This document shows, in pieces, positions 1,192 through 37,618 of a DNA stretch of 37,618 nucleotides (within the stretch, counting starts at the first letter, position 1; every line of letters starts with the position of its first letter). Source of the DNA: a virus; the IMG/VR virus record IMGVR_UViG_3300046458_000053, positions 1-37,618 of that record; one strand, 5' to 3'. Below the pieces are notes generated by a model. That model was given only the letters and a program-made list of their open reading frames with translations. It ran no database searches and was not told where the DNA came from. Made by a program: the position numbers and the translations under genes.

Positions 1192-1265
1192 GCGGGTGTC
1201 GTATAATGGCATTACTCCAGCTTCCCAAGCTGATAACGAGGGTTCGATTCCCTTCACCCGCTCCA
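1192..1265 (+). tRNA. tRNA-Gly (anticodon CCC)
   Basis: A 74-base cloverleaf. Acceptor stem GCGGGTG (1192-1198) pairs with CACCCGC (1255-1261), followed by T and an encoded CCA. The anticodon loop TTCCCAA gives anticodon CCC between CCAGC and GCTGA (one mismatched outer pair). The T arm is GAGGG-TTCGATT-CCCTT. It resembles E. coli tRNA-Gly(CCC). The 3' part from 1219 is identical to the copy at 35693-35739, so this is the prophage integration target. The 3' half is probably phage-supplied and restores the gene. Confidence 0.95.
1219..1265 (+). repeat. attL core (47-bp direct repeat, 3' half of tRNA-Gly)
   Basis: Bases 1219-1265 are identical to 35693-35739, running from AGCTTCCC in the anticodon loop region to the terminal CCA. 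The flanking base differs on both sides (C versus T before, G versus A after), which fixes the ends of the identity. The tRNA is intact here and only a fragment at the other copy, so this is the left prophage junction. Confidence 0.93.
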
Positions 1266-4368: not shown

Positions 4369-5403
4369 CTAGATAATCCAATCATTATTTTTTCTTATAT
4401 GGATCTCATCTCTCCAATTAGTAATGCAAAATTGATCAGCACCTATAGCTCCGTGCTTCCCCAATACGTTGCTTAATGCTAACACCTCCGACCCTGACAT
4501 ATTCGCAATAATACCTTCCTTGGGATTATTACGTAATGTAAGGTCATGATGATGTGCAGGCTCCGCTTCAAGCTGCCATGTTCCCGACTTCATTCTTAAT
4601 GCATAAACATCCCAGTTCTGAGCTACAGCTTTTTCACGGAGGCTGCTATCGACTGACCCCAGCCCTTTGCTAACTGGAGAGCGATTATAAATTAGAGGGT
4701 TACGTAAACCTAAATAAACTTCGGCAATCCGTACGGGGTGATGAAAAACATTTAACCCTCGAATTCTCTCTCGACACTGGCCGGGCGCCACATCTTCATA
4801 GGGAGTTGAGCTGCTAAAATATTCAGCTTCGGGCCCTTCACCTTCCTCACTAAGATTGAAGATTCGCTTAATGACTCTTACTTCTTCCTCGTACACCCAC
4901 GATGAATGCTTGGTTAGAAATAATTTTCGCATTATTATTTCCATTGCATCCCTGTCGACCTCTTCGAAGGGAAATCCTACCGCATTGATTCTAAGATTAT
5001 AAATCAAGCGTGCGGTTTCATCCGTTAGGGTATGAGGGGCCTTAGAACTAGTATAAAGGACATCGCCTCTATCCACTGTAACCAGACTGAATTGACGATC
5101 AATTAGGAACGGGGTGTCTACGTCATACCCAATAACAAATCCTGTATGATCCACACCGTAGTGTGCCCACATTAAAGGATTTAAAGCGGTCCTCGTTAAA
5201 GATAGCACCCCAACATTCCTTTTTAACTCATGAATCGCATCTTCCAAATTCCGCAGCTTATCCTCATCACCAATTGCATTATCGAGGTTTGACAGTTCAA
5301 AGGGATCATTAAACTCGGCGGGCTCCCTAAACCCTAGCATTGATGATTTTAGTGCGCTAATGCCAGCGCCATAACTGTAATATTTATATAGAATCATCTT
5401 CAT
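4369..5403 (-). CDS. DUF2971 family protein, cargo gene of unknown function
   Basis: A protein of about 344 residues with DUF2971 hallmarks: an N-terminal LYKYYSYG and FNDPFE stretch, a central MWAHYGVDHTGFVIGYD, and SWVYEEEVRVIKR. The molecular function of DUF2971 is not established to my knowledge; members are common in mobile and defence-type gene neighbourhoods. The frame is open to 5454, but residues 1-17 of the longest form look non-conserved. I place the start at 5403 (5397 is nearly as good), and no start has a strong ribosome site. It is convergent with the ATPase-TOPRIM operon with 227 bases between them, and tail-to-head with the late operon on the same strand but AT-rich, so it is an independent cargo gene. 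Confidence 0.75.
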   Translation of the reverse strand: MKMILYKYYSYGAGISALKSSMLGFREPAEFNDPFELSNLDNAIGDEDKLRNLEDAIHELKRNVGVLSLTRTALNPLMWAHYGVDHTGFVIGYDVDTPFLIDRQFSLVTVDRGDVLYTSSKAPHTLTDETARLIYNLRINAVGFPFEEVDRDAMEIIMRKLFLTKHSSWVYEEEVRVIKRIFNLSEEGEGPEAEYFSSSTPYEDVAPGQCRERIRGLNVFHHPVRIAEVYLGLRNPLIYNRSPVSKGLGSVDSSLREKAVAQNWDVYALRMKSGTWQLEAEPAHHHDLTLRNNPKEGIIANMSGSEVLALSNVLGKHGAIGADQFCITNWRDEIHIRKNNDWII

Positions 5404-5508
5404 CAATCCAAACATGGAGACTAAAACGGTAGCACAAAGCTGAACATTCAACATTTTTATGCATCACTGTTGATACCAGGGTTCGAAGAGCGATTGTCTT
5501 GCGCACCA

Positions 5509-6480
5509 TCAAAAAGTAATTGATTTCAAATTTGCCGACAGCAATCCGGCCTTGGCCGCATCGGCTGCAAACGCTGCAGCGTTGGTCGGCACCGGCGACG
5601 AGCCATGCATGTGACCGGCCAGCTGGGCGTTCATCTCCTGCACCAGGTCGAGCAGATCGACCACCACCTGGAAAATATTGACGTTCGCTGACCCGACCCA
5701 GTTTTTCGGCGCCTGCAGGCGTTGGCTCTCCTGGGTAATGCTCTCGCGCAGGCCCTGGATCCGCTCGGACATGTCGCCACCCACGGCGGCGTTGTACTTC
5801 CTGCCCACTACCTGATTGAGGTCCCGGCCGGTGGCCTGGTGCATGTCGCCCAGGGCGGCGAGCGTGGCCGTGCCGGCGGAATTCAGCTTGAGCGCGCCCA
5901 GGGCGTCGATCCGCTTGATGCCGCCGACCTGTTCGGTCGAGTGCGTGGCCACGTCCTGGGCGTGGCTCTGGTACTTCTCTTGGTTGGTGCCGCTGTCGAC
6001 CTGGCGTTCCAGGGACTGGTCGGCGATCTTCCCATCGGTCAGGCGGTGCCAGTTGCCGTCGGCGTCGACGCGCTGTTGGGCCAGGTCGCTGTGCTGCCAG
6101 ACCTGGTCACCCTTCGGCACCTTGGGCAGGCTCAGGCCATGCGGCAGGATCGTTTGGATGTACGGGCAGTGAGGCAGGCCGTAGGCAAAGCACACCACTA
6201 CCCGGGTTCCTTCGTGCGGGAACGCATACATGCCCATCTCTTCACCCCCGGTCGGTACTGGCAACGGCACCCCGGGCAGCGGCGGCAGGTCGGGATCTGG
6301 CGAGCCGTCCGGCAGCAGCACCTGCAGGTCGGCCGCATAGCGCGGCCTGAAGTCATCACAGAGGCCTGCATCAGCCGGCGCGTCGGCGATGGCCACCACC
6401 ACCGCGAACCTGGGCAGGTGGTATTTGCCGGACAGCTCCGGGAATTGTCGCTCTACGCTGCGTTTGACTGCGTCGTCCAT
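5509..6480 (-). CDS. Baseplate spike/assembly protein (gpV/gp5-like)
   Basis: A 323-residue protein with the order of gpV-type spikes. An N-terminal OB-fold-like part contains MGMYAFPHEGTRVVVCFAYGLPHCPYI (about 80-110), followed by a repetitive polar region with GDMHQATGRD and GGDMSER elements (about 160-245), then a helical stretch and a C-terminus with an HMHGSSPVPTN motif that often binds metal in spike tips. It would form the trimeric needle at the baseplate centre. It is the last gene of the late operon and overlaps the hub gene before it by 28 bases. It is shorter than VgrG fusions because hub and spike are separate genes here. The assignment rests on order and motifs. Confidence 0.75.
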   Translation of the reverse strand: MDDAVKRSVERQFPELSGKYHLPRFAVVVAIADAPADAGLCDDFRPRYAADLQVLLPDGSPDPDLPPLPGVPLPVPTGGEEMGMYAFPHEGTRVVVCFAYGLPHCPYIQTILPHGLSLPKVPKGDQVWQHSDLAQQRVDADGNWHRLTDGKIADQSLERQVDSGTNQEKYQSHAQDVATHSTEQVGGIKRIDALGALKLNSAGTATLAALGDMHQATGRDLNQVVGRKYNAAVGGDMSERIQGLRESITQESQRLQAPKNWVGSANVNIFQVVVDLLDLVQEMNAQLAGHMHGSSPVPTNAAAFAADAAKAGLLSANLKSITF

Positions 6481-7720: not shown

Positions 7721-8709
7721 AGACCGATCATCTCCCGTACAAAGCTCAGGCCCTTGAGGGACCCGACAAACATCACACCGGAAGACATCACCCATTCGTG
7801 CCCGGGCGTGCTGTCGTCCTCCTCGAGCAGCTGCTTGCGCAGCTCGTCGGTGTCGCCCGGTCCGAGAAAGCGCGTCTGCAGGCCTGCGTCGTCCGTGCCG
7901 CTGTTCAGCAGCTCGCGCAGCGCGCTCAGTTGATCGGACTGCTCGAGCACCTGGTCTGCCTTGCGCTGGGCCAGCTCGGCCAGGTCGGACAGCGGCGAGC
8001 TGTCGGCCGCATACGATTCAAGGCTGGCCAACTGCGCGTTGAACGCCTGGCTGGCTTCACGCAATACGGTGCAGCGCTCCATAGGCGCAGTGAACCAGCG
8101 CGGCTGCTCACCTGCAGCGGGGATCTGCCATTTCTCGGTATCCAGCTGCACCAGGTTCAACGCCCGGCGCTCGGCCCGCTGCAGGTCGCCGATCGGCATC
8201 AGCGCGTTGAATTTCCCAAGCAACCCCGACATACCGTCGTAGCCGGTGCCCAGGAACAGGATCACCACCGCGTGCTGCTCGCCGTCTGGCTTGTTCGGAT
8301 CGGAGCTGTCCTGCAGCTTGTCGGCCAGGCGCTGTATGACGCTGGGCGCTGACAACGTGCACTGATAGCCGTTGCTCTCACCGACACCGGGTTGAAACGG
8401 CGTCACGGTGATGCAGCGCGGGGTTTCGCCAAACTGAATGTCCATGGCCTGGCGCCCAATCGCTGCGGCGTTCTTGGCCAGCTCGCCAATCTGGCTCAGG
8501 TCCGTGGTGACCAGATCGACCAGGCCGGTGACCCGGTCAGCCGCGCTTTGCAGTTCGCTGACCGCCTGGTCCTTGGTCTGATTGAGGTCATCCATCCAGC
8601 TGGTGGCCGCTTCGGGCCACTGCATGCTGACGGAAACCCACTTTGGCAGCGGCGGAAGGTCCGGCAGCGGGATGTCCGGAATATCCGGGATTTCAATGTC
8701 CAGGCTCAT
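7717..8709 (-). CDS. Uncharacterised late-operon protein, probably virion-associated
   Basis: A 330-residue protein I cannot assign to a family. It opens with a Pro/Asp-rich stretch (IPDIPDIPLPDLPPLPKW, residues 7-24), then has predicted helices with Gln/Ala/Asp-rich sequence (about 40-95 and 225-275), and a central segment VVILFLGTGYDGMSGLLGKFNAL. There is no signal peptide or membrane segment. It overlaps both neighbours by 4 bases (ATGA), so it is translationally coupled within the baseplate gene set between the DUF4376 protein and the hub group. A minor baseplate or adaptor protein is plausible. Confidence 0.55.
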   Translation of the reverse strand: MSLDIEIPDIPDIPLPDLPPLPKWVSVSMQWPEAATSWMDDLNQTKDQAVSELQSAADRVTGLVDLVTTDLSQIGELAKNAAAIGRQAMDIQFGETPRCITVTPFQPGVGESNGYQCTLSAPSVIQRLADKLQDSSDPNKPDGEQHAVVILFLGTGYDGMSGLLGKFNALMPIGDLQRAERRALNLVQLDTEKWQIPAAGEQPRWFTAPMERCTVLREASQAFNAQLASLESYAADSSPLSDLAELAQRKADQVLEQSDQLSALRELLNSGTDDAGLQTRFLGPGDTDELRKQLLEEDDSTPGHEWVMSSGVMFVGSLKGLSFVREMIGL

Positions 8710-9335
8710 GGGTTCATCACCTCGTCCACAGCGGCCTGATAGGCCTCATGGAACAGATCGGCGATGTGGATCGCTTCGAGCTCGTCAATGGTTTGCGCAG
8801 TGCTGATCAATGCCTGGACAGTGAATTCGCCCCGGAAGCAACCGCGAGTGTGAGCGGCGACCGCCTTGGCGATCGGCTCCAACTGCTCCAGGTTCACCCG
8901 CTGCCAGGTATCAACCGCTTTCCAATCCGTGTCCGGGATCAAACCGTTCAGCAGCGTTGAATAGGCAATGTTCAGCTGCGACTGGCTCTCGCGGTCAGTG
9001 CGCACGGTCAGCCCGTCGTGCTGCAGGCCGCCCACTTCGAAGGCAAAACGGTATTCCGCCAAGCTGGCCAGTACCTCGGCCCTGATCGTGTCCTGGGACT
9101 TATCAGTGATGGTGTAGGCAGCGGTGATTTTCTCACCGTCAAAAGCCAGTGCCGGCAACTCGGAGCGTACTTGCCTGAATGAGTTGTATGACTCGTTCAC
9201 CATCTCGCACAGGTACCAGCCATAAGCGGCGCGCTCTTCGTCTGTAAGCGTGTGCCAGGCCCCTACACCATTGAAGTTGGAACACATGGTCAGCGGTGCG
9301 GTGATCACGTCGTTAATAACGGTGCCGTAATTCAT
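8706..9335 (-). CDS. DUF4376 protein, probable tail-fibre assembly/cap
   Basis: A 209-residue protein. The C-terminal half shows the DUF4376 pattern: ASLAEYRFAFEVGGLQHDGLTVRTDRESQSQL, then WKAVDTWQRVNLEQLEPIAKAVAAHTRGCF, then an AQTIDEL end. DUF4376 proteins are usually encoded directly after tail fibres and take the place of, or are fused to, tail-fibre assembly chaperones. Here the gene starts 3 bases after the fibre stop. The first 75 residues are a short beta-type region of unknown role. I infer that it assists fibre folding or trimerisation. Confidence 0.72.
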   Translation of the reverse strand: MNYGTVINDVITAPLTMCSNFNGVGAWHTLTDEERAAYGWYLCEMVNESYNSFRQVRSELPALAFDGEKITAAYTITDKSQDTIRAEVLASLAEYRFAFEVGGLQHDGLTVRTDRESQSQLNIAYSTLLNGLIPDTDWKAVDTWQRVNLEQLEPIAKAVAAHTRGCFRGEFTVQALISTAQTIDELEAIHIADLFHEAYQAAVDEVMNP

Positions 9336-9338
9336 TGA

Positions 9339-11711
9339 TTAAGCTCCTAGCCCTGGTGGGTTATAGGCAATAGCGTACGGAGCCGCAGACGGCAGTACTG
9401 CGGGATTCGCAAGTTTTACGAAAGAGTCGCCATCACGCTTCAAGACGAATATGAAGGGCGACGCTTGGCCGCCAAACACCAGGTACTGGCCGTCTTTGCT
9501 CCAGGAGACGCACGAGCACTGAACCGTTATGCCCGCAGGTGTAGGCAAAATGTTCCACACGTCTCCGGTGCGTTTGTAGATGGCAATAAATGGTGACTCA
9601 CTGAGCGCGACCGCGATGTAGGCACCGTCGTCTGACAGAGCGATCGCATTTGGAATCCCGGTGAAAGCGCCATTAACGGTGAGCTGCACCCAGTTGTTAT
9701 TGGCATAAACCCGAAAGCAACTGATCGATCCAGCATAAAAAGACCCGAATGCGACATAGGGGCCTGCAATCGACATTCGGCGTATTGCCCCATTCGAGAC
9801 AGGAAGGTTCGAAGGCCCGACGACATACTGCCAATCATTGCCAGAACGAGCGATCGTGAAATTGGGCGGCGATACCTGGCTGCCAATGAATAGATAAGCG
9901 GAGTTTGGACCAAAGCACATGTCTATGACCGATCCGACACTAGCCCCGGTATAGGCGACGTAGGTGAATACATCTCCAGCACGCTTATAAATCAACAGCC
10001 CCGGATTGGCTTCACAAGCCACAGCCATATAAAGCCCGTCGTCACTGAATGCGACGGCAGTGCAGAAACCCGTTGGCATTACAGACGGTGAAGGCAACAG
10101 GGTGAGATCGTTGCCGATCTTTTTGTAGATCTGCAGGTAGGGGGCTGAGGAGAACGCAAGCGCCATGTGCACACCGTCATAGCTATAGGCGACGGCCTGC
10201 GCAGACTGAGAGGGTTGTGGGTTGGGCGTATCCAGCTTACGCAGCGTGTCGATATCCTGCCCGTACACACCAATCCTGAAACCGGCAGTCGCAGTCAACA
10301 TCGTGACCGAGCGATCAAAGACAAATGCGGACTTCGTGATAAAGCCAGACGACTGCCATGGCGTGCTGGGCAGCGTCATCCCGTTGTACTGCACCTCAAT
10401 CGTATGGTTTTTCGACACGACCAGGAGGCCAGCCGGCAGCTTGATGCTGGTCAGGTTCACCGTGTCGTTCATGGACGACCAAATCACATCGCCCGCCGCA
10501 TTGCGCAGCCGCCAGTTGGCCGACTTTTGAGTGTCCGAGGCCGCCGGCACAGTCGCAAAGGCACTTGCCATGAATGTCGGCGTTTCATCGACCTCAGTGG
10601 CGCCGTTGATCGGCTGCAGGATTGTCGGCGTGCTGATGCTGACCGCACTGGTAGTGAACTTGGAAACAGCGCTATACGCGGAGGATCCCAGCGACACGCC
10701 ATTATGCCGGGCCAGCGGGAAGTACTGCACACCCGGCTGGAGCGCACCGGCGGGCAACGTGATGGTGGTTTTGTTGGTGCTGTTGGCCAACGACTGCCAG
10801 ACCACATCACCGGCAGCGTTCTTGATGATCCAGTCGGTGTCCTTGTGAGTGTCGGCGGTCGCCGGGTAGGCCACGAAGGCTGACGTGGTCAGCGTGACAC
10901 CGAGCGCTACCCCGACCGCGTTGTTTGCCGGGCTGGTGAGGGTCGGTGCGCCGATTGCCTGGGCGCCCAGGGCGACCTTGAACGTGGTCTTGATCCCATC
11001 GCGCAACACGTCCAGGACGACGACACCAGCTGCTGCGCCGGCTGGAATGGTCAATGTCAGCGTGTCGCTGGCGATCGCAACGGTTCCCAGGGACGTGGTG
11101 GCCGAATAGACGCTGAAACGGCTGTAATCGGTGATCTTGTAGGCGTTGCTGCTGTTCGGGTAGATCAGGACCGCGCCGTCCAAGCTGACGACGTTAGCGG
11201 CGTTGGCCACCCCGATTTTCAATGCGGCGATATCGTCCCGGATTGACGCGAATTCGGTTGTGAAGTCGAACTGCCAGGTGCTGGCCGGCACCGTGATACC
11301 GGTCAGGCTGCGTGCACCGTCGTAGTCCAGGACGATATTACGGGTCAGGTTGTTACCCGACTGCAGCGGCGGGATCTCGCGGCGCTTCTGCTGAGTGGGC
11401 ACGTAGGCCACGATCAGCGGCACACCCTCGGCGGTCACCAGGCCCATCCAGTTGAAGTCGAAGTCGCCGATATCGCTACCCAACAAGGTGCTGAACACGA
11501 CTCGGTTGGGGCTCAGATAGCCCTTTCGGGTGACCGCTGTGGTGTAGACGACATCCGCCGCGTCCGGCAGGCCTGCCGATCGATCAACCGGCAGGGTGGT
11601 GTCCAGCCCGGGGACGAAGGCGAAAATGATCTGCGTGACGTCCAGGATCTGCTTGTTGCCTTGCTTCTGCGCGATCAGGCTTTCGCCCGCGATGGTGATG
11701 CTTGCCCCCAT
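9339..11711 (-). CDS. Tail fibre with N-terminal collar domain and C-terminal beta-propeller
   Basis: A 790-residue fibre. Residues 1-160 resemble the tail-collar fibre N-terminal domain (DUF3751 type) that anchors fibres to P2-like baseplates. Residues about 253-354 and 359-460 are two related fibronectin-like repeats, both with NAAGDV(V/I)W and LPAG landmarks. From 466 to the end there are six clear repeats of about 45-50 residues of the type AVAFSDDGLYMAV...LLIYKRAGD, plus an AIAYNPPG end strand and an N-terminal strand (GFRIGVYGQD) that would close a seventh blade. This predicts a seven-bladed WD40-like propeller as receptor-binding head, probably for a surface sugar. The C-terminus differs in style from the phage-conserved N-terminus, consistent with domain swapping. 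Confidence 0.85.
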   Translation of the reverse strand: MGASITIAGESLIAQKQGNKQILDVTQIIFAFVPGLDTTLPVDRSAGLPDAADVVYTTAVTRKGYLSPNRVVFSTLLGSDIGDFDFNWMGLVTAEGVPLIVAYVPTQQKRREIPPLQSGNNLTRNIVLDYDGARSLTGITVPASTWQFDFTTEFASIRDDIAALKIGVANAANVVSLDGAVLIYPNSSNAYKITDYSRFSVYSATTSLGTVAIASDTLTLTIPAGAAAGVVVLDVLRDGIKTTFKVALGAQAIGAPTLTSPANNAVGVALGVTLTTSAFVAYPATADTHKDTDWIIKNAAGDVVWQSLANSTNKTTITLPAGALQPGVQYFPLARHNGVSLGSSAYSAVSKFTTSAVSISTPTILQPINGATEVDETPTFMASAFATVPAASDTQKSANWRLRNAAGDVIWSSMNDTVNLTSIKLPAGLLVVSKNHTIEVQYNGMTLPSTPWQSSGFITKSAFVFDRSVTMLTATAGFRIGVYGQDIDTLRKLDTPNPQPSQSAQAVAYSYDGVHMALAFSSAPYLQIYKKIGNDLTLLPSPSVMPTGFCTAVAFSDDGLYMAVACEANPGLLIYKRAGDVFTYVAYTGASVGSVIDMCFGPNSAYLFIGSQVSPPNFTIARSGNDWQYVVGPSNLPVSNGAIRRMSIAGPYVAFGSFYAGSISCFRVYANNNWVQLTVNGAFTGIPNAIALSDDGAYIAVALSESPFIAIYKRTGDVWNILPTPAGITVQCSCVSWSKDGQYLVFGGQASPFIFVLKRDGDSFVKLANPAVLPSAAPYAIAYNPPGLGA

Positions 11712-11722
11712 GGGGAAATTCC

Positions 11723-12322
11723 TTATCGAGTGACCAGCGTCATGTGGTCGTTGTTGAATTCCGCTGCACCGAGGCCCAGGACAACCGAGTCGGTGTCGCT
11801 GAATTTGGCGGTCAGGGTCATGTGGTCGTTGCTGAACTCGAACGTCGCGATCGACAGCGAAACCGCCGTGGTAGTGACGAATTCGTAACGCCGGCAGGTG
11901 CGGCCGTACTGATGAATGATCATGTCCAGGAGCAGCGGGTTAGCCGCCAATTGCTCGTCGGTCAGGTGCAACTGGACGATGTCCCAGTCACGATCGGGCT
12001 GGCGTTCGCTAATCGTGAGATCACCGATGCCCAGGCGCTGGAAAATCCGCTTGAAGCCCGCCACGCTGCCGGCGTCCACCGCGTTGACGTATGCGTACTT
12101 GACCCGCAGCCGGTACAAGCCCTCGGACTCGCCACGAAAGCGGCTGATATCGCGCTGCCAGGCGATCAGATCGAGCACAGCTAAGTGGCAGGTCTCCGGG
12201 TCCATCTGCTGCAGCGGCCAGCCGACCCAGGACTCCACGGCTTCCCACCAGGACTGGGCAGCCACCTGCAGCTTTGTCAGCTCCTCGCCGCCCAGCCAGA
12301 ACGGCAGCTCCAGTTTGATCAT
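11723..12322 (-). CDS. Tail protein I (gpI-like baseplate wedge)
   Basis: A 199-residue protein matching gpI-type tail proteins in position after gpJ and in features: KLQVAAQSWWEAVESWVGWPLQQMDPETCHLAVLDLIAWQRDISRF, then RLRVKYAYVNAVDAGSVAGFKRIFQRLGI. gpI helps join the baseplate periphery and the fibres. The C-terminus is odd: NDHMTL occurs twice (FSNDHMTLTAKF and FNNDHMTLVTR) in an imperfect 28-residue repeat, and the DNA shows the matching duplication at 11734-11756 and 11818-11840. This tail would face the fibre, so it may be a fibre-docking segment. It overlaps gpJ by 4 bases. Confidence 0.78.
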   Translation of the reverse strand: MIKLELPFWLGGEELTKLQVAAQSWWEAVESWVGWPLQQMDPETCHLAVLDLIAWQRDISRFRGESEGLYRLRVKYAYVNAVDAGSVAGFKRIFQRLGIGDLTISERQPDRDWDIVQLHLTDEQLAANPLLLDMIIHQYGRTCRRYEFVTTTAVSLSIATFEFSNDHMTLTAKFSDTDSVVLGLGAAEFNNDHMTLVTR

Positions 12323-13491
12323 TGCAGCGTCACCTCGACCGCCTGCAGGCGCGGGATCGTCAAATCCGACACGATGTCGTCATTGGCAAATTTCAACGAA
12401 CCGATGCCGGCGAATTGGGCGTGCAGTTCTTCGGTCAGGCGGCTGAACGAAAACCGCGCCTGTGGCCAGGTCAGCGTCGGGCTGTAGTCCTTGGCGCTGC
12501 TTTCACGGAAGGCGGCGCGGATAAACAGCTCGATATCCGCCTGCAGATCTGCACGCTGTTTGACGGTCAGGTTGGCCACCGGCCAGATCTCAACGTTCAC
12601 CAGGTGCTGGGTCTCAGGCATGACCATGACCAGCATGTCATCGCCGTGGCCATGATTGCCCTCGACCATGATTTTCGCGTTGATCTGCTCCAGGTACGTG
12701 TCCGCCGGCACACCGGCCTCAAACAGCACATAGGCATTGGCGCTGCCCGGGCCACGCGGGGCGCCGTGCTGAAAAAACACGCCATCAGGCGACACGCCCT
12801 GGAATGCGGCGATCAGGGCGCGATATACCGAGTCGGTGTGCCACTGGTTGACGGCACTGAACTGATTGCGCACGCGCAGGCGCAGCTCGTCGTCGGGCTC
12901 ATCATCTGCCCCGGGCACGGTCAACCAGTCTTCCGGGGTGCTGACCGCGATGATCCCGGCGATCGGCGTCGGCAACACGGCGTAGTAACCCGGAGCCAGG
13001 TTGTAGCCGCTGCCGGCATCGACGGCGATAGCTGGAATTTGTAGTCGTGACTGGCCATCGGCGAACACGCCCAGGGCGGTGGTCACCAACTGGTAGACGT
13101 TGCCGTTGATCGGGGCCGACTGCACAACGGTGCCGATCGGAACCTGCAGCGCGCCCGAGGCCCCCGATCGGGTGAACTCAACGATGCCGACCGTCTTGCT
13201 CGCACCCTTGCGGGTGATGTCCACCGCCCAAGCGAGGGTATCGAGCCACTGTTTACCAGCGGTTTTGACGAAGAAGTTCGGCAGGACGGTGTCACTGACG
13301 AAGGTCAGCAGCCACAGCACGGGCTTGGTCACCAGGGCGGTGACAACCCGCCAGAACGGCGAATAGGCGCTGGTGTTGGCGATCTTGGCGCCCTGGGCGA
13401 CGACTTCCGCCTCCCAGGCAGCGCGCAGCGCGGCGTCGGTTGTCGGGATCCCGGAGTCGGCCAGAACGTCCTTGAAGTTGAGGTCAGTCAC
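12319..13491 (-). CDS. Baseplate J protein (gpJ/gp47-like)
   Basis: A 390-residue wedge protein of the baseplate_J family. Landmarks are WLDTLAWAVDITRKGASKTVGIVEFTR, the beta-hairpin VPIGTVVQS, AVDAGSGYNLAPG, then WLTVPGADDEPDDELRLRVRNQF (about 195-217), a signature of this family. With gpI and the DUF2590 protein it forms the wedges around the hub that move on contraction. It overlaps the gene on each side by 4 bases. Length agrees with other J proteins (P2 J is shorter at about 300). Confidence 0.88.
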   Translation of the reverse strand: MTDLNFKDVLADSGIPTTDAALRAAWEAEVVAQGAKIANTSAYSPFWRVVTALVTKPVLWLLTFVSDTVLPNFFVKTAGKQWLDTLAWAVDITRKGASKTVGIVEFTRSGASGALQVPIGTVVQSAPINGNVYQLVTTALGVFADGQSRLQIPAIAVDAGSGYNLAPGYYAVLPTPIAGIIAVSTPEDWLTVPGADDEPDDELRLRVRNQFSAVNQWHTDSVYRALIAAFQGVSPDGVFFQHGAPRGPGSANAYVLFEAGVPADTYLEQINAKIMVEGNHGHGDDMLVMVMPETQHLVNVEIWPVANLTVKQRADLQADIELFIRAAFRESSAKDYSPTLTWPQARFSFSRLTEELHAQFAGIGSLKFANDDIVSDLTIPRLQAVEVTLQ

Positions 13492-37370: not shown

Positions 37371-37618
37371 AAGGGCGAGGCTCCTGAGTCGGGCCACCCG
37401 TTACGTGATTGTTTGTATAAGGGTGGCAACTGTGTGGCGGTTAGCGAACCGGCCTTAGAGCAAGCAATCACCGGCAGACCCGAAGGTCTCCGACACACAG
37501 TCACCATAAAACATGCTTCAGGCGTGATCGGCCCAATGCAGACAGTGGATGCTTGCTCAAGATTCGGATCGCTAAATCCGGTCGCTGATTTTGCAGCGAC
37601 GGCGCACCATAAATCGCC
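37371..37618. other. Intergenic end of window with hairpin
   Basis: No gene seen. One perfect hairpin, GTCGCTG-ATTTTG-CAGCGAC (37581-37600), lies near the end. It has no T tract after it. It may be part of a regulatory region of a gene outside the window. Confidence 0.3.

Follow-up and report, generated by a model that had tools for sequence, protein, structure and literature searches.

A WD40-like propeller predicted as the head of an HP1/P2-type phage tail fibre, on a shaft that carries alternative heads with a matched downstream gene

Propeller receptor-binding proteins and joint swaps of a fibre with its chaperone are both already known. The C-terminal domain of phiKZ gp131 (PDB 4GBF) is a seven-bladed propeller at the baseplate periphery of a Pseudomonas myophage tail, proposed to be receptor-binding or cell-degrading, and the receptor-binding proteins of Staphylococcus phage phi11 (Gp45) and of PRD1 (P2) contain five-bladed propellers; the phi11 protein is a trimer in which the propeller forms a middle platform, followed by a C-terminal tower (PMC4901313, in the part available). 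In R-type syringacins, the fibre end and chaperone of Rbp/chaperone pairs are swapped jointly by localised recombination, which retargets killing (PMC6331570, available in part), and the eBAP3 fibres of eCIS carry propeller lectins on collagen shafts (PMC12923769, likewise).

The tail fibre analysed here lies in a virus record of 37618 bases (the window). It resembles phiKZ gp131C in placing a seven-bladed propeller on a Pseudomonas-phage tail, but does so on an HP1/P2-type PF12571 fibre instead of at the baseplate periphery (PMC4901313, in part); gp131C is absent from the head-profile matches at E ≤ 0.001 and is not among the structure matches listed, and a relation between the two is still conceivable. 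The phi11 and PRD1 proteins share with it a propeller inside a receptor-binding protein, although theirs have five blades and the window's has seven (PMC4901313, in part). The likeness to the syringacin pairs lies in the joint exchange; the word 'propeller' is absent from the main text of PMC6331570. The eCIS eBAP3 fibres also place a propeller in a contractile-tail fibre but combine it with a collagen-like shaft and a TNFR-like end domain, in contrast to the anchor and Ig shaft of the window fibre (PMC12923769, in part). What is new is an HP1/P2-type fibre slot that accepts propellers of two families as well as a lectin-like fold, together with a matched partner gene; no description of a WD40- or Kelch-headed HP1/P2-type fibre was found in the titles and abstract beginnings searched, and one may exist in print. 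The result extends the HP1/P2-type fibre to a WD40-like propeller head, reveals a single shaft with three head folds and breakpoints at domain borders, and helps to annotate tail fibres left hypothetical by automatic annotation.

The genes concerned are as follows.
9339..11711, minus strand: tail fibre gene, 790 aa, stop codon included
11723..12322, minus strand: Tail_P2_I (gpI-like) gene, directly upstream of the fibre gene
12319..13491, minus strand: Baseplate_J gene
8706..9335, minus strand: partner gene, 209 aa, with a first half (residues 1-84, 9084-9335) and a DUF4376 half (residues 85-209)

The N-terminal PF12571 domain of the fibre (E 1.2e-24; 87.5 bits against a cut-off of 23) and the gene order Baseplate_J, Tail_P2_I, fibre, small gene both identify the HP1/P2 type. 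Over the window's first 25 kb the nearest deposited phage is Pseudomonas phage UFJF_PfPro (37% covered, 74% identity), with phi3 and its relatives also among the nearest, and the fibre relatives in named genomes (n = 2) are both from Pseudomonas. The window phage is best explained as a temperate, HP1/P2-type relative of Pseudomonas phages.

The C-terminal head of the fibre (residues 458-790) is resolved into the following elements, all on the minus strand; blade borders are taken from the AlphaFold2 model and, for blades 2-7, also from the repeat scores.
9342..10340, minus: seven-bladed WD40-like propeller head, residues 458-790 (AlphaFold2, structure and profile matches)
10233..10313, minus: blade 1, three N-terminal strands, residues 467-493
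10098..10202, minus: blade 2, residues 504-538
9960..10064, minus: blade 3, residues 550-584
9822..9923, minus: blade 4, residues 597-630, a weaker repeat
9672..9785, minus: blade 5, residues 643-680, its repeat unrecognisable by sequence
9549..9653, minus: blade 6, residues 687-721
9414..9518, minus: blade 7, residues 732-766
9360..9380, minus: closing strand of blade 1, residues 778-784

The head comprises six full repeat units of 44-47 residues each, with the first blade divided between both ends of the domain, and units 2-7, compared in pairs, reach a mean score of 41.3, as opposed to 1.3 ± 2.0 in 500 shuffles (maximum 9.7). The head fold is a prediction: the AlphaFold2 model, built from a 10-row alignment, has 28 strands in a 7 × 4 order that form seven closed four-stranded blades (mean pLDDT 83.4, pTM 0.85), with confidence lowest near blades 4-5 and at both ends. 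Its C-terminal strand (322-328 of the head model, fibre residues 778-784) completes blade 1. Of two alignments considered, one of trimmed heads (A3) kept its rows in register, whereas one of all fibres and heads (A2), in which the relatives lost blade 5, was kept out of the prediction. The original prediction, made from the letters alone, had proposed a seven-bladed propeller with split end strands as the fibre head; the 28-strand model, its closure of blade 1 by the C-terminal strand, its Z scores of about 33 to solved seven-bladed propellers (below) and its position at the C-terminus of a PF12571 fibre bear this out. The accompanying count of six clear blade repeats was slightly generous, as units 2, 3, 6 and 7 are clear but unit 4 is weaker and unit 5, with scores of just 6-15 to the remaining full units, is identified as a blade from the model and not from the sequence. 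A beta-helix fold of the repeats was rejected, the structure prediction of the head region having given a closed propeller.

The best solved match to the head model is the lactonase propeller 6nau_A (Z 33.8 over 315 residues, 2.8 Å), with 1ri6 (Z 33.7), 7bid (Z 33.2) and the archaeal surface-layer YVTN propeller 1l0q_A (Z 32.9) also matched, and a POR1 protein ranks first among predicted viral structures (TM 0.85 by query length). The head-family profile matches the WD-40 protein 2ymu_A at E 5.9e-64. The WD40 family (PF00400) itself scores 22.4 bits with the window head, under the cut-off of 27, and 28.9 bits, above it, with the head of relative L008; an NCBIfam search gave no match. By definition, repeats of the WD40 family carry GH and WD dipeptides. 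These canonical dipeptides are absent from the head repeats, as read by eye in the repeat units and the family consensus, and 'IYKRxGD' occupies the WD position; the head is therefore named 'WD40-like'.

The head is joined to the N-terminal end of the fibre through a shaft modelled as Ig-like.
11241..11711, minus: fibre anchor (Phage_tail_fib, PF12571), residues 1-157, 68-75% identical to L007, L008, L009, L012 and L013
11199..11261, minus: helix, possibly a short coiled coil, residues 151-171 (full-length model); first swap boundary
10947..11195, minus: Ig-like domain 1, residues 173-255 (model), 58-63% identical to the same five relatives
10647..10946, minus: Ig-like domain 2, residues 256-355 (model), 51% identical to L008 and 31-39% to four Kelch-head fibres
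10341..10646, minus: Ig-like domain 3, residues 356-457 (model), 53% identical to L008 and 25-30% to four Kelch-head fibres

The AlphaFold2 model of the full-length fibre (15 rows) places three Ig-like domains, approximately at 176-252, 258-355 and 364-459, before the propeller, and Pfam finds Ig-type domains (Ig_Rha78A_N) in some of the relatives. An Ig/FnIII-like spacer had been anticipated as two fibronectin-like repeats; its nature holds, but the number is three. Global confidence in this model is low (pLDDT 74.1, pTM 0.45), with pLDDT under 50 at anchor residues 61-84 and 107-150, and it carries no information on oligomer state.

Comparison with related fibres supported the proposal that heads are swapped. 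An anchor search of the loci gave 120 fibre ORFs, 112 of them distinct and 110 long enough, which reduced to 82 at 85% C-terminal identity; the window's shaft occurs in 16 of the 82 (13 Kelch, 2 WD40-like and 1 Lcl_C-like). Four representatives chosen by eye from a later shaft search (L145 with a Kelch head; L142, L143 and L159 with Lcl_C heads) were added, and L146, L148, L149 and L150 (like L145), L153 (like L077), and L010 and L160 (partial) were left out. The resulting 20 representatives with the same anchor and shaft have 14 Kelch-propeller heads, 2 WD40-like heads (the window and L008) and 4 Lcl_C-like heads, the Lcl_C scores of L159 and L056 lying under the curated cut-off; the WD40-like heads on this shaft form only two lineages. 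The remaining 66 non-redundant relatives share the anchor with no BLAST match to the window shaft, and none of them (0/66, of which 8 run off their loci) matches a propeller family; they include 33 with Gp53-like_C, 9 with Collar, 4 with Gly_rich_2 and one each with mtd_2nd and DUF2510. The claim that a propeller replaces the usual knob is therefore right against the wider family, and so is the claim that a WD40-like head is unusual, but the latter fails within this shaft because propellers are the rule there (16/20).

The sequences also indicate where heads are joined. Identity of the window head is 35% to L008 and 12-17% to four Kelch fibres. L111 and L071 share 100% of their DNA sequence over 360 codons, then drop to 91% identity over codons 361-380 and to 35-78% (mostly 50-65%) beyond, with a change point just before Ig3, and L142 (Lcl) matches L111 (Kelch) at 91-100% for 220 codons, then at 86% for one block and 45-81% beyond. 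Swaps had been expected at about residue 160 or 460: the helix after residue ~160 is indeed one swap point, the 66 relatives with another shaft keeping the anchor before it, but in place of 460 the further breakpoints fall at the Ig1/Ig2 and Ig2/Ig3 boundaries. Furthermore, a score of 162 relates Ig2 of the window to an Ig-like domain in the otherwise unrelated protein L128, compared with 108-146 for Kelch-head fibres, 180-211 for Lcl-head fibres and 268 for L008; as the likeness to L128 is above that to any Kelch-head fibre, the travelling module may be an Ig domain plus the head.

The gene beside the fibre stop changes with the head. We compared the ORF starting there with the window's partner gene at 22 loci (3 WD40, 15 Kelch and 4 Lcl, some of them near copies), splitting the partner at its domain border or, in six Kelch loci where no border was found by pattern, at residue 80. 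Local scores for the first half reached 332 and 329 at both of the remaining WD40-head loci, compared with 20-40 at 15/15 Kelch loci and 16-22 at 4/4 Lcl loci, whereas the DUF4376 half scored 320 and 355 (WD40), 204-358 (Kelch) and 22-36 (Lcl); the partner gene thus co-varies with the fibre tip across the 22 loci. At E ≤ 1e-4 the first half matches only WD40-head loci of this lineage, apart from 48 residues in the distant WD40-like locus L129; this match is short and may reflect a common motif. Pfam detects DUF4376 in the partners of the window, L008 and L007 and not in those of L056, L142 and the G130 prophage, and the DUF4376 half has no match in the 46 of 66 other-shaft loci with at least 700 nt past the fibre (20 are too short). 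Kelch-headed HP1-like Pseudomonas fibres (L007, L012, L013 and others) share the anchor, the first Ig domain and the fibre-partner order with the window, but their head belongs to the Kelch family and the first half of their partner gene differs. Judged from these alignments, the exchange unit reaches into the downstream gene. DUF4376 is the only Pfam family above cut-off in the partner, which matches no known chaperone family in Pfam; its PHROGs match is to 'tail fiber protein' (phrog_10508, E 1.1e-17), and by analogy it is probably a fibre-assembly protein.

Relatives of the head are also present in other proteins. Peptide patterns drawn from the window head alone found no close relatives in the viral or genome contigs searched, and relatives emerged only once an alignment with L008 was used. 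A scan with the alignment of the window, L008 and L011 heads returned 11 loci, two of them the contigs of L008 and L011; the remaining nine (L128-L132, L134-L137) contain the same module, with the consensus 'SPDGxYLAVAHxxSPYITIYKRxGDTFTKLxNPxxLP', behind different N-terminal parts (in L128 a collagen-like part and two Ig-like domains, in L129 and L131 two Ig-like domains, and in L132 a LamG-like domain, assigned partly by reading). In L135 the module (at about 5001-6017) sits within a 1139-aa protein, the start of which, on our own reading, appears to resemble a podovirus tail-tube/stabilisation protein. These nine, Pseudomonas phage POR1 orf76, Salicola phage CGphi29 and Xanthomonas phage XacN1 belong by sequence to the same propeller family, but with other N-terminal parts and in other phage types than the window; PF12571, present in the window fibre, is absent from L129, L130, L132, L135 and POR1 orf76, and in POR1 the propeller is a separate gene with a fold match of TM 0.85 to the window head. 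Eleven 'YKR' motifs in L131 and eight in L128 indicate that arrays grow beyond seven. Nine records of the phages collection match the head at E ≤ 1e-3. Searches with the head profile, run without a positive control, gave no match at E ≤ 1e-25 in 369 genomes of the class (uninformative for this reason) and one at E ≤ 1e-20 in 398 genomes of the genus. A second propeller gene lies downstream in L130 and L132, and L129 and L131 have a second gene that begins similarly (first 230 residues). In a genome of the Pseudomonas set, L138 (527-2826) encodes a WD40-like fibre of another N-terminal type, with a small gene after it.

The relatives with another propeller or a lectin-like tip and a matching neighbour gene point to the head as an apparently exchangeable cell-recognition part. 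We consider it very probable that the window gene encodes a host-recognition fibre, presumably trimeric, with a receptor-binding propeller that is exchangeable at Ig boundaries together with its matched partner. The N-terminal domain would dock the fibre on the baseplate, the short helix and three Ig-like domains would form the shaft, and the C-terminal WD40-like propeller would bind the cell surface, most likely by its variable d-a/b-c loop face. Recombination at Ig boundaries would exchange the head, along with one or two neighbouring Ig domains, for a Kelch propeller or a head of the Lcl_C-like (C-type-lectin-like) kind. The downstream gene would arrive in its matching version and probably helps to fold or cap the fibre tip. 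Over nine rows (L011, a near copy of L008, was dropped), loop entropy is 1.68 bits for b-c plus d-a and 1.18 bits for a-b plus c-d (permutation p 0.001, the positions not being independent), which in the modelled propeller fits recognition by the b-c/d-a face; loop conservation in WD40-type blades can serve folding, so the contrast between faces need not mean binding.

That the propeller is instead a lactonase-, sialidase- or lyase-like enzyme acting to degrade surface polysaccharide, making the fibre a tailspike and not a pure adhesin, is suggested by the 6-phosphogluconolactonases among the best solved matches and by weak Pfam Lactonase matches (E 0.0019 for the window, E 4.3e-4 for L008). 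It is nevertheless unlikely: the window head scores 17.9 bits against the cut-off of 21.7 for the seven-bladed lactonase family (PF10282), Z scores of about 28-34 are common to enzymes and non-enzymes, and Kelch and Lcl_C-like heads fill the same slot. The presence of related propellers in non-tip proteins (L135, POR1 orf76) counts against the recognition fibre, and related modules inside other tail proteins would suit a structural spacer or assembly surface, with recognition left to another fibre or to Ig-domain loops; a seven-bladed propeller is structural in the SU10 nozzle (PMC9509320, available in part). However, the propeller is the C-terminal tip of a PF12571 fibre and the protein's most exchanged part, while conservation is usual for structural parts, and we regard such a role as quite improbable. 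Least credible, and only barely so, is a decaying or recently captured module with no function in the window phage, to which the low GC3 of the head (60, where the remaining domains have 80-83) and the divergent blades 4-5 might point; the 790-aa frame is intact, the closed model is confident and the matched partner gene has been kept.

Returning to the recognition fibre, its tip may, tentatively, be a fold-agnostic socket for propellers of either family and for a lectin-like fold, with the partner as a two-part adaptor, its DUF4376 half going with either propeller family and its first half being family-specific. If true, this would give a readable head-partner pairing code and make the WD40-like module a general phage adhesin that moves between unrelated tail proteins. 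Three folds on a single shaft, natural breakpoints and a matched partner make head-partner specificity and the receptor of the propeller tip directly testable.

The base composition of the fibre gene changes at its head: GC3 is 83.4 in the anchor, 81.9, 81.0 and 80.0 in Ig1, Ig2 and Ig3, and 60.0 in the head, and among windows of 330 codons (n = 100, 12 genes) only the DUF2971 gene falls below the head. The head is lower than the anchor in 16/16 relatives, by more than 10 points in 10. The L008 WD40-like head shows almost no dip (78.8 versus 79.0), which indicates that the fold does not force low GC3 and that the dip is not general; the best reading is that the window head is an import with a foreign base composition. 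The DUF2971 gene (4369-5454, minus strand), with a GC of 42.5 and a GC3 of 39 against about 80 in structural genes, adjoins the tail genes and is likely a cargo gene.

A tRNA-Gly (ccc) lies at window positions 1192-1265 on the plus strand. Sequence at the ends of two further phage records likewise matches the 3' part of this tRNA, which may therefore be the attachment site. At the end of the record, on the minus strand, the window contains a C4 antisense RNA (RF01695) and its a1/b1 targets (RF03163), at 37419-37511 and 37561-37612; C4 antisense RNA is the immunity RNA of P1-like phages.
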